From Paenirhodobacter populi (lineage in GTDB: Bacteria; Pseudomonadota; Alphaproteobacteria; Rhodobacterales; Rhodobacteraceae): 64,000 bases of DNA. Made by a program: the position numbers and the translations under genes. The stretch spans positions 62,001 through 126,000 of the forward strand of contig NZ_SAUZ01000016.1 of assembly GCF_004022215.1 (NCBI RefSeq), read 5' to 3'. How positions within the stretch are numbered: the stretch's first letter is position 1; each line of letters begins with the position of its first letter. Under the pieces are notes generated by a model that saw nothing but the letters and a program-made list of their open reading frames with translations, was not told where the DNA came from and did no database searches. Below, in pieces: positions 5,604 through 43,763 of the stretch.

Positions 5604-5672
5604 CCGTCGTTTTTCCATAAATATCCCGGGGGTGAATTTGCGCATCAGCGCAAAGAGGGGGCTGGCCCCCTC
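5604..5672 (-). repeat. Family C intergenic repeat, copy 2
   Basis: Reverse-complement copy of the element at 1984-2052 and of exactly the same length. It reads CCGTCGTTTTTCCATAAATA at its left edge, then the TTTGCGC/GCGCAAA hairpin (loop ATCA) and the GAGGGGGC/GCCCCCTC hairpin. It fills the convergent gap between pcaR and the thioesterase gene. Confidence 0.85.
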
Positions 5673-7804: not shown

Positions 7805-8135
7805 CTCGGCGGGCTGTTTGGGAATGTGGCTGGAGCCTTATGACTGGAACAGGAACGATGTCGCAAGGTGATTTGTTCAGATAGCGGCGGCGAATGGCAC
7901 GGCTGGCGCACGAAACCATCCCCACAATCCGGCCGGGATCCCATGCGCCCGGAACCGGCAAGACGCCGTTCGATCCGGCGACAGCGCAGGCCGGAATTAC
8001 TGGCCCCTTCTCCCGCTTTCATCCATGAATATCCGCGGGAATGAGGCGGATCAAATGGCCTTCCTGTGGAAGGACGTCGCGCCGAAAACCGGAACGGGGC
8101 GGGGGCAACGCCCCTCCCCCGCAACGACCGATCCC
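7805..8135. other. 331-bp gap with diverged family C repeat, otherwise no gene seen
   Basis: No convincing reading frame. The left half precedes the MFS start and should hold its promoter. The right half (8021-8121) carries a diverged family C element: CCATGAATATCCGCGGG, then GGCCTTCC-TGT-GGAAGGAC and GGGGCG-GGGGCAA-CGCCCC hairpins, located just downstream of the PcaK-like gene. Confidence 0.6.
8021..8121 (-). repeat. Family C-like repeat, diverged copy 5
   Basis: It shows the ATCCATGAATATCCGCGGGA core (compare TCCATAAATATCCCGGGGG in the good copies), the same GGCCTTCC/GGAAGG insertion hairpin found in copy 4, and a GC-rich hairpin at the far end. It is orientated like copy 2 and follows the stop of the transporter gene, consistent with a terminator role. 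Confidence 0.55.
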
Positions 8136-15014: not shown

Positions 15015-15993
15015 TCAGGCGACGACTTCGATTTCGGCTCTTCCGAGGGCCGAGCAGCGATCCATGATAGCGATGCGGATCTGGATTTCGGCGGTTTGGC
15101 GGTCGGGATCGCGTGACATGATCCGTTCGCCGAAGAGCTTGAGGCGGTTCATCTGCGCCTCGATGCGGCTTCGGGCATGATAGCCTGTCCATTTCTTCCA
15201 GAGAGCCCGGCCCAGACATCTGGTCGTTTGCAGGATCTCATTGCGCGAGATCGCTGCAGGGCAATCGGGTTTCCACGCACGGCCGTTCCGTCGGATCGGG
15301 ATGATCGGCTCCGCGTCGCGCTCAAGGATCGCAGCATGGCAGCGACGCGTGTCGTAGGCTCCGTCCGCAGTGACCGTCTCGATATCCTCGGTGACCGGGA
15401 TCTGCGACAGCAGCTCCGGCAGGATCGGGCTGTCGCCTTGTCGGCTGGAGGTGAACTCGGCAGCACGGATATCACCTGTCATGGTGTCCGTCGCCAGGTG
15501 AACCTTGCGCCACTCCCGACTACGCGCCGCGCCATGCTTGCGGGCCAGCCATTCGCGATCACCGCGGAAACGGATGCCATTGCTGTCGATCAGCAGATTC
15601 AGGGGCTGGCCGGAGCATCGATAAGGGATTTGAACCGCGATCCGCGCCTGGCGGCGGCACAGGGTCGAATAGTCCGGCACCGGCCAGTCGAGACCGGCCA
15701 TCTTGATCAGGCTCGCGACAAGACCGACGGTCTGGCGGAGCGGTAGGCCGAAGAGGACCTTCAGCGTCAGGCCAATCGTCGGGCAAACAGTCCCCCGGAC
15801 TGTTTGCTGACCCTCCTCATATCTGAATGGCGCTGTCGGAGAAAGCCTCGGGGTGGCCGCGCCTGCCGGTCCTGACCGCCGACCACTCCAGCTCGGCATC
15901 GAACCAGATCGAAAGGGAGCCACGTCGCTTGAGCGAGGCGTTGTAGATAGACCAGTTCGTCGTGCGATAGCGGGAGGTGTTAGGCTTCGGCAT
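15015..15993 (-). pseudogene. IS5-family (IS903 group) transposase, split by hairpin element A
   Basis: The N-terminal frame from ATG 15993 reads MPKPNTSRYRTTNWSIYNAS and RRGSLSIWFDAELEWSA, then runs into TGA at the edge of element A1. The remaining catalytic part (LTLKVLFGLPLRQ through LIDSNGIRFRG, VTADGAYDTRRCH and WTGYHARSRIEAQM, ending at 15015) is in another frame. These include the DDE blocks around Asp in LLIDSNG, Asp in TADGAYDTR and Glu in RSRIEAQ. Together they would make a normal transposase of about 310 residues. With the insertion it should be inactive unless ribosomes re-start or shift. Confidence 0.8.
15772..15822 (-). repeat. Hairpin element A, copy 1 (51 bp), inside IS5 transposase
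   Basis: Read on the transposase strand it begins ATATGAGGAGG, has a perfect 11-bp stem GCAAACAGTCC-GGG-GGACTGTTTGC, and ends CCCGACGATTGG. It matches element A2 (17357-17407) at 43 of 51 positions, with identical length, ends and stem core. Its TGA is in frame with the interrupted transposase. Confidence 0.85.
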
Positions 15994-16068
15994 GTGACTG
16001 ACCTAACCCTACCGATTCCCAAAATGAATCCATATCACCGATATGTGCAACAAGCCCGGTAGACCTCG

Positions 16069-16111
16069 CCGTTCGCCATCGGGCTTGAACCGGTGGCGCC
16101 TCGATGGCTCA
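16069..16111 (-). repeat. Hairpin element B, copy 2 (43 bp)
   Basis: On the transposase strand it begins TGAGCCATCGAGGCGCC, has the stem GCCACCGG/CCGATGGC and ends GCGAACGG. It differs from B1 at 7 of 43 positions, including a T-A to C-G compensatory change in the stem. It lies directly after the codons for GSLKG of the IS481-like gene. Confidence 0.8.
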
Positions 16112-16342
16112 CCCCTTGAGGCTGCCGACGAAGAACGTGCCGACCGACAGTAGCTCGCCCGACGCCGCGCTTTCGACATGGCGCTCGCGGTAGGAGGGGT
16201 TGAGCTTTTCGAGGAAGGCAGCCTGCTCGGCGGTGATATCGATGACCTTGCCGGCATTGGCCTCTTCCAGCGCCAGCCAGCGCTCGATCCGGGTGCCGAG
16301 CCCATGGTCGTTGAGCAGCTTCTGGATCGTGATCGCCGAGAT

Positions 16343-16385
16343 CCGTTCGCCATTGGGCTCGAACCAATGGCGCTCCAATGGCTCA
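16343..16385 (-). repeat. Hairpin element B, copy 1 (43 bp)
   Basis: On the transposase strand it begins TGAGCCATTGGAGC, forms the perfect 8-bp stem GCCATTGG-TTCGAGC-CCAATGGC and ends GAACGG. It separates the codons for LSLEG from those for ISAITIQK, which are adjacent or nearly adjacent in relatives, and shifts the frame. Confidence 0.85.
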
Positions 16386-16646
16386 CCCTTCCAGCGAAAG
16401 GATCGCCTCGAGCCGGTTGCAGCCGTATGCCGGGTGCTCAAGCGCTAGGGCCCGGATGCGCTCGACAACCTCCGGCGCGGTGGCCTGCGGGTAGGACTTG
16501 TGGATCGGGGGCAGGTCCTTCAGCCCGTCGAAACCTTGGGTCTGGAACCATCGCTTCCACTCGTAGAAGCTGGTGCGATCCATGCCGCGCTGACGGCAGG
16601 CCTCGGCGACGTTGCCTGGTTCCCGCGCTAGCTCCAGCACGCTCAT

Positions 16647-16844
16647 CCGCTGTTACGCGACTTTGCTGGCCGCGTCACGTGGCGACTTCCTGATCTTCGA
16701 TGATCCGTCCCTCGGTGGTTCCTCCTTTCCAAGAATTGCACGGAAAGAAGGTTAAGGGGACAGGTTCGGGGCCCATGGCGAAGGGCATCAAGCTCCTCGG
16801 TGAATGAGAGGGGACCGTGGCTGCGGAGCAGCCGCGCAAGCCCA
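16647..16844. other. 198-bp IS-derived or unassigned sequence
   Basis: Between the IS481-like start and the first recognisable codons of the next IS5 remnant. It contains GGTTAAGGGGACAGGTTCGG-like sequence, possibly an IS end, but no terminal repeat pair could be established. Confidence 0.35.
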
Positions 16845-16964
16845 TCGAATGAATGGTTCGCGCGCAAGCATGGCACGCATCGCCGACGCCGGTATCGCAA
16901 GGCTCAACTGGCCATAGATACGGCCACCGACATCTGCGCAGCGGAGTTCATCTCCAGCGACAAG

Positions 16965-17007
16965 GGCGACATCGAGCCGATGAAGCGCCACTGGCTCGAG
17001 CGAACGG
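16965..17007 (+). repeat. Hairpin element B, degraded copy 3
   Basis: Plus-strand sequence between the transposase codons for SSDKGD and the expected LDQIPP region. GCGCCACTGGCTCGAGC and GAACGG match element B, but the right arm of the stem (CCAATGGC) is lost. Confidence 0.55.
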
Positions 17008-17356
17008 GCGAGGGTTCTGCCCCACCCGCTCGACCAGATCCCGCCCGATGAGCAGATCGGCACCGTGACCGGAGACGGCGCCTCCGACACCCGCCGCTAT
17101 CACACGGCCATCCTGCTGCGCGGCGGTACCGTAGTCATACCCTTCCGCAAAAACGGGCAACGATGGCGGGGGACTGCCCGCCGCGCTCGACATGGTCCTC
17201 GGACCAGTGGCGGATAATGTCTCGCCCCGCAACAGGATCCCCGTGCGCCCCAACGCCCGGGCCGCATTCGTCGGACTTGCGCGGCGCCACTGGCGCCACG
17301 GTTCCTCCTCATCCTGGAAACGCTGGTCCGGATATCACGTCCGAAGCCGGATCGAG

Positions 17357-17407
17357 ATATGAGGAGGACCATGAAACAGTCCAGTGGACTGTTCTCCCGA
17401 CGATTGG
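17357..17407 (+). repeat. Hairpin element A, copy 2 (51 bp), inside second IS5 remnant
   Basis: It begins ATATGAGGAGGACCATG, has stem AACAGTCC-AGT-GGACTGTT and ends CCCGACGATTGG. It sits between the codons for HVRSRIE and MKYLKAFGER, next to the catalytic glutamate. Its 51 bases are 17 codons, so downstream codons stay in frame, but TGA is the second codon. A stop, an AGGAGG site and an ATG are packed together at the left end. Confidence 0.85.
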
Positions 17408-17599
17408 ATGAAATACCTCAAGGCGTTCGGGGAACGCAGCGCATCACGCGACCCGGACCGACAGACGGCCGAAGTCCAGATCCGTGTCGCACTGATGAAT
17501 CGCGTCAAAGCGTTCGGCACCGCCGAGATCGAGCGCGTGGCATGAACTCAACCGGGAAAGGGCACTGCCTACTCAGGTTTTGACTTTTGCAACAACGCC

Positions 17600-41170: not shown

Positions 41171-42670
41171 ATGCAAGACATCGGACATTGGATCGACGGC
41201 AAGCATGTCGCGGGCACCTCGGGGCGCTTCAGCGACATCTACAACCCGGCGACGGGTGAAATTCAGGCCCGGGTCGCGCTGGCGACGCCCGAGGAACTCG
41301 GCGCGGCCATCGACTCGGCGGAAAAGGCGCAGGTCAAATGGGCCGCGACCAACCCGCAGCGGCGCGCCCGCGTGATGATGAAGTTCGGCGCGCTCATCAA
41401 CGAACACATGGACGAACTGGCCGAGCTGGTTTCGCGCGAACATGGCAAGACGCTCCCCGACGCCAAGGGCGACGTGCAGCGCGGCCTTGAGGTGATCGAG
41501 GTCTGCATGGGCGCGCCCTCGGCCCTGAAGGGCGAGTTTTCCGACAATGCCGGGCCGGGGATCGACCTTTACGCGATGCGCCAGCCGCTTGGCGTCGTCG
41601 CGGGGATCACGCCCTTCAACTTCCCGGCGATGATCCCGCTGTGGAAGATGGGGCCGGCGCTGGCCTCGGGTAATGCGATGATCCTGAAACCGTCCGAGCG
41701 CGTGCCCTCGACCTCGCTGCGTCTGGCGGAACTCGCGCAGGAGGCCGGGCTGCCCGACGGCGTGCTGCAGGTCGTCAACGGCGGCAAGGAAATCGTCGAC
41801 GCGCTGCTGGATCACCCGACCATTCAGGGCATCGGCTTCGTCGGCTCGACGCCGATCGCGCAATACATCTATGGCCGCGCGGCGACGAACGGCAAGCGCG
41901 CGCAGTGCTTCGGCGGCGCCAAGAACCACATGCTGATCATGCCCGATGCCGATCTGGACAAAGCGGCGGACGCGCTGATCGGGGCGGGCTACGGGGCGGC
42001 GGGCGAACGCTGCATGGCGATCTCAGTCGCGGTGCCGGTCGGGCAGAAGACCGCCGATGCGCTGATCGACAAGCTGATCCCAAGGATCGAAAAGCTGAAG
42101 GTCGGCCCCTATACCGGCGGCGATGACGTCGATTTCGGGCCGGTCATCACCAAGGCCGCGCTGGAGCGGATCGAGGGGCTGATCGCCTCGGGCGTCGAAC
42201 AGGGCGCCAAGCTGGTGATCGACGGCCGCGGGCTGAAGATCCAGGGCTATGAGGACGGCTTCTTCACCGGCCCGTCGCTGTTCGACAACGTCACCCCGGA
42301 CATGGAGATCTACAAGCAGGAGATCTTCGGCCCGGTCCTGTCCACCGTGCGCGCCGACAGCTATGAAGAGGCGCTGCAACTGGTGATGAAGAACGAATAC
42401 GGCAACGGCACGGCGATCTACACCGCCGACGGCGATACCGCGCGCGATTTCGCCAGCCGGGTGAATGTCGGCATGGTCGGCATCAACTTCCCGATCCCGG
42501 TGCCGCTGAGCTACTATTCCTTCGGCGGCTGGAAGAAGTCGGCCTTCGGCGACCTGAACCAGTATGGCCCGGATGCCTTCCGCTTCTACACCAAGACCAA
42601 GACGGTCACGGCGCGCTGGTTCTCTGGCATCCGCGACGGGGCGAGCCTGAACTTCAAGGCGATGGACTGA
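41171..42670 (+). CDS. mmsA: CoA-acylating methylmalonate/malonate-semialdehyde dehydrogenase
   Basis: A 499-residue CoA-dependent aldehyde dehydrogenase (IolA/MmsA) that turns malonate semialdehyde into acetyl-CoA and CO2, the last inositol step, and acts in valine breakdown too. It has GITPFNFPAMIPLWKMGPAL (about 144-163), catalytic Cys281 in GAAGERCMAIS, and the typical end SYYSFGGWKKSAFGD. A strong AGGAGGAG site precedes the start. Upstream (41080-41095) is a tandem ATGCAAAA repeat. A structured family C repeat with a terminator follows. Confidence 0.92.
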   Translation: MQDIGHWIDGKHVAGTSGRFSDIYNPATGEIQARVALATPEELGAAIDSAEKAQVKWAATNPQRRARVMMKFGALINEHMDELAELVSREHGKTLPDAKGDVQRGLEVIEVCMGAPSALKGEFSDNAGPGIDLYAMRQPLGVVAGITPFNFPAMIPLWKMGPALASGNAMILKPSERVPSTSLRLAELAQEAGLPDGVLQVVNGGKEIVDALLDHPTIQGIGFVGSTPIAQYIYGRAATNGKRAQCFGGAKNHMLIMPDADLDKAADALIGAGYGAAGERCMAISVAVPVGQKTADALIDKLIPRIEKLKVGPYTGGDDVDFGPVITKAALERIEGLIASGVEQGAKLVIDGRGLKIQGYEDGFFTGPSLFDNVTPDMEIYKQEIFGPVLSTVRADSYEEALQLVMKNEYGNGTAIYTADGDTARDFASRVNVGMVGINFPIPVPLSYYSFGGWKKSAFGDLNQYGPDAFRFYTKTKTVTARWFSGIRDGASLNFKAMD

Positions 42671-42717: not shown

Positions 42718-42817
42718 AGGGGGCCAGCCCCCTCGGCGCAAGCGCATTCGGCGGGACGACCTTCCACTGGAAGGTCGTCTTTTCCACCTCATCCCCCGGG
42801 ATATTTATGGAAAGCCG
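42718..42817 (+). repeat. Family C intergenic repeat, copy 4, with internal palindrome insertion
   Basis: AGGGGGC-CA-GCCCCCT hairpin, a GCGC-AA-GCGC remnant of hairpin 2, then a 23-bp near-perfect palindrome (42756-42778), and finally the conserved tail TCCCCCGGGATATTTATGG. It fills the convergent gap between mmsA and the LysR gene. Confidence 0.8.
42756..42784 (+). terminator. Rho-independent terminator of mmsA
   Basis: ACGACCTTCCA-C-TGGAAGGTCGT (11-bp arms; the innermost pairs must open for the loop) followed by CTTTTCC. Good intrinsic terminator on the mmsA strand. Confidence 0.8.
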
Positions 42818-42863: not shown

Positions 42864-43763
42864 TTATTGCCCGGCTGCGATGGCTTCGAGCCGGGCGATT
42901 TCCGTTCGCGTGGCCTGGGCGAAAGCCTCGGCAAAGCGGGTCAGGCGTTCCGAGCGGCGATCGTCCGCGTGCCGCACCAGCCAGAAGGTCCGGCGCAGCG
43001 CGATCGTTTCGGGCAACACCCGCACCACATCCGGGCAGGCGGGGATGGCGAAATCGTGGACGATGCCCAGCCCCGCCCCCGCCCGCACCATCTGCATCTG
43101 TACCGCGACCGAGTTGGAGGCCAGATCGACCGTCGGCGCCCCCGTCTCGGCCAGATAGTCCAGTTCGCGGTCGAAGATCATGTCGGGGATATAGCCGATC
43201 ATCCGGTGCCCGCGCAGATCCGCGAGTGCGGTAATCGGCGGATGCGTGGCCAGATAGCTCCGGTCGCCTGCCAGATGCAGCGCGTAATCCGCCAGCTTCT
43301 GCACCGTCAGCCGCCCCCCCGTCGGGCGCGAGACGGTGATGGCGAAATCCGCCTCGCGCTTCGACAGGTTGACCATCCGCGGCAGGGCGAGGATCTGGAT
43401 CTCAAGCCCCGGATTGGCATCGCAGATCGCCCCGCAGACCTGCGGCAGCACGTAGTTCGCGCAGCCATCCGGCGCGCCGATGCGGATCTGCCCGCTGAGG
43501 CCTCCGGTCTGGCCCGAAAGCTCCTCGGCCGCGCCGGACATCGCCTGTTCGGCGGTTTCGGCATGGGGGATCAGGCGGCGCCCGGGCTCCGTCAGCCGAT
43601 ACCCCTGCGGCGATTTCAGGAACAGTTTCGCCCCCAGATCCTCTTCCAGCCGCGCGACCCGGCGCCCGACCGTCGCGGCATCGCATTTCAGCACGCGCGC
43701 CGCCGCCGACAGGCTTTCCGCCCGCGCGACGGCCAGAAACACCCGCAGATCGTCCCAGTCCAT
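42864..43763 (-). CDS. LysR-family transcriptional regulator
   Basis: A 299-residue LysR regulator: HTH at about 1-60 (LRVFLAVARAESLSAAARVL, CDAATVGRRVARLEEDLG) and substrate-binding domain from about 88 (GQIRIGAPDGCANYVLPQV). Its subtype resembles small LTTRs that control neighbouring dehydrogenase genes. It is convergent with mmsA. A perfect TTTGCAT-GA-ATGCAAA palindrome lies eight bases before its start codon and suggests autoregulation. Target unknown. Confidence 0.82.
   Translation of the reverse strand: MDWDDLRVFLAVARAESLSAAARVLKCDAATVGRRVARLEEDLGAKLFLKSPQGYRLTEPGRRLIPHAETAEQAMSGAAEELSGQTGGLSGQIRIGAPDGCANYVLPQVCGAICDANPGLEIQILALPRMVNLSKREADFAITVSRPTGGRLTVQKLADYALHLAGDRSYLATHPPITALADLRGHRMIGYIPDMIFDRELDYLAETGAPTVDLASNSVAVQMQMVRAGAGLGIVHDFAIPACPDVVRVLPETIALRRTFWLVRHADDRRSERLTRFAEAFAQATRTEIARLEAIAAGQ

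Follow-up and report, generated by a model that had tools for sequence, protein, structure and literature searches.

The 51-bp repeats that interrupt two transposase genes in the window (the whole 64,000-nt stretch of Paenirhodobacter populi DNA analyzed here) probably belong to a non-autonomous, structure-based mobile hairpin of the Rhodobacterales, one lineage of which lives inside insertion sequences (ISs). The family combines the general properties of mobile hairpin repeats: its ends are defined, it occupies many sites, occupied sites have empty counterparts, and its structure is kept as its sequence changes. No paper describing this hairpin family was found in the open literature searched; in the available part of the text of a Paracoccus mobilome paper (PMC3281130), the terms "palindrom", "hairpin", and "stem-loop" are absent, and Paracoccus and Rhodobacter go unmentioned in the RepRanger paper (PMC12306157). 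An Rfam search with 5 loci likewise returned no family at its gathering score, the best scores being 28.5 bits against a gathering score of 87 and, for BASRCI153, 21.2 against 137.

Two hairpin copies in the window

The two copies lie at 15772–15822 on the minus strand and at 17357–17407 on the plus strand. As a sequence-only reading of the window had described, each is 51 bp long, they are identical at 43 of 51 positions, and they have in common both ends (ATATGAGGAGG and CCCGACGATTGG) and a palindrome in the center, AACAGTCCNNNGGACTGTT. With up to 2 mismatches allowed, the palindrome has 2 matches in the window, against a mean of 0.01 over 100 shuffles, and 14 in the whole genome, where a reversed control pattern has 0.

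Copy 1 (44-bp core at 15776–15819; 74.5 bits against a covariance model of the family) sits between codons AIQ and LTLKV of an IS5-family transposase gene (Pfam DDE_Tnp_1, E = 6.8e-26). Two pieces of this gene remain on the minus strand: an N-terminal piece of 58 aa at 15817–15993, taken from the ORF list and terminated by the element's TGA, and a C-terminal piece at 15015–15770 with Pfam matches to DDE_Tnp_1 and DDE_Tnp_1_5. Homologous IS5 genes without the hairpin span this site in matches of 71–78% identity, and where the same site is filled elsewhere (L117/L159), the net gain relative to an empty relative is +46 bp. Copy 2 (core at 17360–17403; 60.7 bits, with copy 2 itself part of the model's alignment) follows HVRSRIE in a decayed IS5 transposase, the downstream piece of which (MKYLKAFGERSASRDPDRQ..., 17384–17545, plus strand, from the ORF list) is 53 aa long and gave no match in a Pfam search. 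An empty counterpart of this site is present within the same genome (L011, C40), with flanks 96% and 90% identical and a net gain of +45 bp. The IS5 that holds copy 2 is a decayed patchwork, adjoining IS3-like transposase pieces in the interval 16000–17500.

A unit kept by base pairing

Across 121 collected copies we find a common 44-bp core (TGAGGAGGATCAGAAAACAGTCCGGGGGACTGTTTTCCCGACGA) that begins 15 bases ahead of the palindrome and ends 28 bases from the palindrome start. Its left edge is sharp. For the copies collected by scanning public genomes, the search pattern specified the right half of the core and so partly set the right edge, but this end recurs in copies obtained by searches free of that constraint. 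The whole unit measures approximately 47–49 nt and has a fixed direction, TGAGGAGG-ATCAG-stem-loop-stem-CCCGACGA. It folds into an inner stem of 11 pairs with a loop of 3, a bulge that is mostly ATCA-like, an outer stem, and mutually complementary end bases, with NTGA as the foot of the element and GAAN' as the opposite end. The copies have fixed rather than random ends. What is conserved is not the fixed 51-mer of the sequence-only reading; it is the 44-bp core, flanked by end bases that vary and complement each other.

The letters of the stem are variable (AACAGTCC, AACGATCC, ATCCTTCC, AACGGTCC, and ATTGATCC, among others), and each variant has a matching second arm. Among 44 distinct sequences, 94.7% of cells are paired in the drawn structure, and compensated double changes occur in 10 of 15 pairs (5.3 in shuffles), giving 72 double-change cells against 17.0 in shuffles and 2–16 when partners were slid by 1–3 columns. 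The copy finder demanded complementarity at 7 of 8 arm letters, so selection accounts for part of the covariation in these 8 pairs, and the independent evidence comes from the remaining pairs only. Of the 72 cells, 48 fall in these remaining pairs, with the largest contributions from the terminal pair beyond the core (23) and the pair immediately beneath the palindrome (13). When the sister lineage described below is included (63 sequences; 24 further rows of the alignment, A4, were taken from covariance-model matches), double changes extend to 14 of 18 pairs and 182 cells, against 49.6 in shuffles. The outer stem varies among GGCGG:CCGCC, GCCGG:CCGGC, GCAGG:CCTGC (L302), and GGAGG opposite CCGAC with two G.A juxtapositions. 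Under standard rules these juxtapositions, a feature of the IS lineage, make two outer-stem columns count as unpaired (34 and 32 of the 63 rows), and they may form sheared tandem pairs. Judged from these alignments, the compensated changes show that the unit is kept by base pairing and not by stem sequence.

The exact palindrome is present in 9 of 18 genomes of the genus, and a looser, shortened pattern in 12 of 120 genomes of the family. When public genomes were scanned for the palindrome plus the right end, at least 113 stretches matched; among the 80 matches listed by title, nearly all are from Rhodobacterales (Paracoccus, Gemmobacter, Rhodobacter, and others), and the outliers among the matches listed are metagenome bins labeled Acidobacteria (L029) and Roseibium (L103), together with three labeled only Alphaproteobacteria. 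We note in passing that the palindrome also occurs on 12 viral contigs; a phage origin was considered and set aside, an 81-base query containing copy 2 having matched no phage record.

Insertion into transposase genes

Similarity to transposases, as judged with seeds consisting of Pfam-identified proteins and annotated plasmid genes, lies within 150 bp of 104 of the 121 copies and covers many IS families: IS5 (52 copies), IS3 (21), IS66 (8), IS256 (8), IS21 (6), other rve-type elements (6), and IS110 (3). Among the 17 unlabeled copies, three have Pfam transposase domains (L026, L130, and L131), and most others either have a site in common with a labeled copy or are transposase-like by eye; L107 adjoins a PG_binding_1 domain and is not transposase-like, and L017 is uncertain. 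The independent sites are fewer, since the same IS is often represented several times among the 121 copies (11 of them come from one IS in one strain). The best-scoring strand is the element's own in 66 of the 104 labeled copies and the opposite one in 38, strand calls being doubtful for some IS3 rows, and from this split it follows that orientation is not fixed. The uniform orientation and phase claimed earlier thus hold for the two window copies, both of which are in sense orientation in IS5-family transposase genes with TGA in frame, and do not extend to the family at large, in which phases also vary by site.

Several hairpins can lie in one IS region. In L126, four copies differing in stem and direction occupy approximately 1 kb of one IS region (about 660–1570), and in the window's genome, single IS regions on three contigs (G000:C21, C37, and C46) contain two or three hairpins of different stem types. 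A different hairpin of approximately 36 bp (GGCATTGCTTCGAGCAATGCC core) is inserted in an annotated, whole IS3 orfA on a Rhodovulum sulfidophilum plasmid (AP014802.1; L214), near the site that the hairpin element occupies in L050.

The history of these sites can be read from 52 filled/empty pairs, in each of which a related gene without the unit was aligned on both flanks (flanks of at most 76 bp, 75%–100% identity). The net gain is +45 in 21 pairs, +42 in 13, +43 in 11, +41 in 2, +46 in 2, and 36, 44, and 47 once each; the gap filter of 4–22 bases allowed only net gains of 31–49, and the pairs are partly dependent, several having one site in common. No target duplication was seen in the 52 pairs inspected. 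Instead, approximately 3–6 bp of target are replaced when the unit is taken as 47 or 49 nt, a figure that hinges on the chosen element end and on extrapolated alignments. The clearest pair concerns IS110, where a filled P. aminovorans gene of 1077 bp and an empty P. yeei gene of 1032 bp, both annotated as whole transposases, differ by exactly 45 bp; an IS110 copy in the window's genome matches the empty gene at 97% and 99% identity on its two flanks. As comparisons of aligned genes, the pairs show that the unit has entered transposase genes belonging to many IS families, on one strand or the other, replacing target bases without duplicating any. From pairs that are at best approximately 97%–99% identical, and that are not strains of one species, we infer that the hairpin is mobile.

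The earlier claim that the hairpin was inserted at different points of separate transposase genes is upheld by these relatives, which are uninterrupted and lack the 51 bp. That the unit might instead be ancestral IS sequence, an original state lost in relatives, is scarcely credible: some sites do recur in ISs of several species, as the IS5 RIE site does, but the closest relatives have ordinary codons in place of the unit, and the unit is also found in unrelated IS families.

Insertion appears to have occurred repeatedly, and ISs have in turn multiplied with the hairpin aboard. Two very different IS5 genes (L175 and L123), with flanks only 55% identical, carry the unit at the same codon, and each has a close empty relative (flanks 93/97% and 88/93% identical, respectively); given the divergence of the two genes and the close empty relative of each, the simplest reading is that there were separate gains at one favored site. 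In Paracoccus sp. MKU1, an element-bearing IS5 is present at 11 loci, and in ten of ten comparisons similarity is lost approximately 103–107 bp from the element, a break that looks like the IS end; genome G091 has an element-bearing IS3-like sequence at four loci. Multiplication of ISs bearing the hairpin, with the hairpin carried along, is shown by these repeated loci. It demonstrates carriage by the IS and not the hairpin's own movement, the case for which is built on the empty sites.

The consequences for the interrupted genes differ from site to site. An open, in-frame gene is left by the insertions in IS110, in two IS66 genes, at the IS5 FS site, and in several antisense IS5 copies; the frame is stopped or shifted at the IS5 RIE and AIQ sites and at the EW site with +43 (no frame could be called in 7 of the 52 pairs, and calls were doubtful or failed near contig ends and for some IS3 rows). 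Most reading frames through the core are open. With most core frames open, some insertions may leave a working transposase, or the interrupted IS may be movable by intact copies, and the IS lineage would persist because transposase genes are multicopy, dispensable, and mobile.

These frames bear directly on the sequence-only reading's proposal of a translational stop-restart cassette, in which TGA ends the first product and translation of the downstream part begins anew at AGGAGG plus ATG. In both window copies an in-frame TGA is indeed followed by AGGAGG, and other sense sites (the IS5 RIE and AIQ sites) also meet TGA. However, at copy 1 the frame of the downstream part contains no start codon, and in copy 2 the element's ATG (17371) does not share the reading frame of the transposase codons that follow from 17408 on, so that the cassette fails for both. 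Moreover, in the 38 of 104 labeled copies that are antisense, TGA and AGGAGG would fall outside the transposase message, and the frame is open through the element in IS110, IS66, and the IS5 FS site. We therefore regard the cassette as very improbable.

The same variety limits the likeness to Rickettsia palindromic elements (RPEs) that had been suggested. RPEs are approximately 150 bp long, encode a conserved peptide, and lie in unrelated metabolic genes, as described in the available part of PMC10969869. The hairpins are likewise short palindromic repeats of alpha-Proteobacteria inside genes, and the comparison is apt insofar as some insertions keep the frame, so that the gene stays open (IS110, +45 bp). 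It breaks down where others stop or shift the frame: unlike RPEs as that portion of the text presents them, the element is 47–49 nt long, lies in transposase genes, and has no fixed frame or strand, occurring in mixed frames on both strands rather than as an in-frame insertion with a conserved peptide.

Candidate enzymes and a sister lineage in host DNA

If the hairpin moves as a structured DNA unit, a structure-recognizing enzyme supplied in trans, and not a Y1/RAYT transposase coded in these genomes, might cut or copy the folded single strand and would then seal the strand into a short gap. The search for a RAYT partner that the sequence-only reading had recommended came back empty for the genus: the Y1 transposase domain PF01797 (RAYT family) is absent from 18 of 18 genomes, the window's own included, and the same search matched 5 of 14 named genomes used as a control. 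A repetitive extragenic palindrome (REP) mobilized by a RAYT (TnpA-REP, Y1 family), possibly in another donor genome, would fit a short palindrome with a fixed foot, many copies, and insertion without target duplication. On the reverse strand, the core also begins CGTC-like, recalling the CGTC-tagged REPs of alpha-Proteobacteria (Di Nocera et al. 2013, PMC3733652), for which the available part of that text describes stems of 8–9 bp starting with AT, loops of 4–5, and a CCA tail, and in which Paracoccus and Rhodobacter go unmentioned. Both kinds of hairpin repeat come from alpha-Proteobacteria, have a fixed foot that is unpaired, and, as far as that portion of PMC3733652 goes, are not known to have a transposase of their own. 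However, against the families as described there, our element has an 11-bp inner stem without AT at its first two positions, a loop of 3, a covarying outer stem, and no CCA tail, and the letters CGTC occur in the IS lineage and are replaced by CGGC in the sister lineage. Together with the missing PF01797, this makes a RAYT-driven REP improbable. Given end bases that complement each other, target bases that are replaced, and the lack of a Y1 transposase, how the element inserts is a question that lends itself to direct testing.

An element that moves through an RNA stage, reverse-transcribed for example by a group II intron or retron enzyme, would agree with the covariation-conserved structure and the fixed direction. 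RVT_1 matches occur in 9 of 18 genomes of the genus, but without an evident link to the copies, and three genomes with exact copies (G006, G009, and G012, the last only 81% complete) have no RVT_1 match; we consider this route quite unlikely.

GTAG-type REPs and REPINs served by RAYTs are also non-autonomous palindromes in many copies, but they are mainly extragenic and have a GTAG foot, whereas the present copies lie inside IS genes, with feet NTGA and GAAN', in a genus without a Y1 transposase. Miniature inverted-repeat transposable elements (MITEs) are small, non-autonomous, and internally repeated as well; in contrast to them, the hairpin has ends (TGAGGAGG and CCCGACGA) that do not form a common terminal inverted repeat, its stem changes with compensation, and target is lost rather than duplicated. 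IStrons, in which a group I intron resides in an IS, resemble the hairpin in being nested in and carried by the IS, but a group I ribozyme would not fit into 47–49 nt. Since RPEs, CGTC-tagged REPs, GTAG-type REPs, and MITEs each differ from the family in at least one of the features compared, we file it with no named mobile repeat.

A stronger reading, which we offer only tentatively, is that the element is a hyperparasite: a 47–49-nt structured DNA element with its own insertion route, aimed at the transposase genes of many unrelated IS families through structure plus a loose target rule, and spreading between species on the ISs that it has entered. If the mobile-hairpin reading is right, insertion sequences have tiny parasites of their own; this reading would also account for broken or lengthened transposase annotations across the Rhodobacterales.

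ISs are not the only habitat of the wider family. A covariance model built from IS-nested copies gave 52 matches in the window's genome (E up to 0.01), 20 of them within 300 bp of similarity to an IS protein and 32 not; the IS reference set was derived from IS-nested copies, so other ISs could be missed. Matches of the GGAGG or GCCGG type had an IS nearby in 17 cases and none in 1, those of the GGCGG type, which we call the sister lineage, in 1 and 29, and the 4 unassigned matches were divided 2 and 2 (17/18 versus 1/30 for the assigned matches, Fisher p = 7e-11). The 29 GGCGG places without an IS correspond to 26 loci, of which 24 have the upstream flank AAATATCCC (at most 1 mismatch); an approximate ORF rule places 20 of all 26 in intergenic DNA, and 6 touch or overlap a predicted ORF. 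The window itself contains one sister-lineage copy (TGAGGTGG...CCCGCCGAATGC) at 42744–42794 on the minus strand (49.1 bits), between two convergent ORFs at 41171–42670 (plus) and 42864–43763 (minus), and a weak one at 8039–8089 on the plus strand (24.4 bits, E = 0.0018), which has an upstream flank of the sister type and is probably decayed. On the evidence of these sequence matches, the sister lineage resides in host intergenic regions, and the earlier impression that copies are confined to transposons is accurate for the IS lineage and not for the family as a whole. If the mobile-hairpin reading is right, a single genome in which one lineage occupies IS genes and another occupies host intergenic DNA offers a natural control for target choice.

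The intergenic copies also raise the alternative that the hairpins are not mobile themselves: they would be host 3'-end structures (terminator-like) that recombination or copying errors distributed and that ISs acquired. In its favor, the sister lineage has a standard intergenic setting (AAATATCCCGG ... GAGGGGGCTGGCCCCC) in which the slot is elsewhere filled by a different hairpin, and one sister-type copy (C27:19290) adjoins an IS256 protein and so links the two habitats. This alternative nevertheless seems unlikely, as the filled/empty pairs show the unit gained cleanly and by itself, at many unrelated intragenic sites and without the intergenic flanks, and we continue to favor a mobile hairpin. 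The intergenic module itself, TTTTCCATAAATATCCCGGGGGTGA - variable hairpin - GAGGGGGCTGGCCCCCT, recurs in the window at 5620, 25591 (minus strand), and 2027 (minus strand), with different hairpins in the slot at different sites and sister-lineage copies filling it at others. Sister-lineage hairpins can also stand in direct tandem in the window's genome, as three units at G000:C10:29966-30096 (L265) and as two at G000:C3:143143-143231 (L256).
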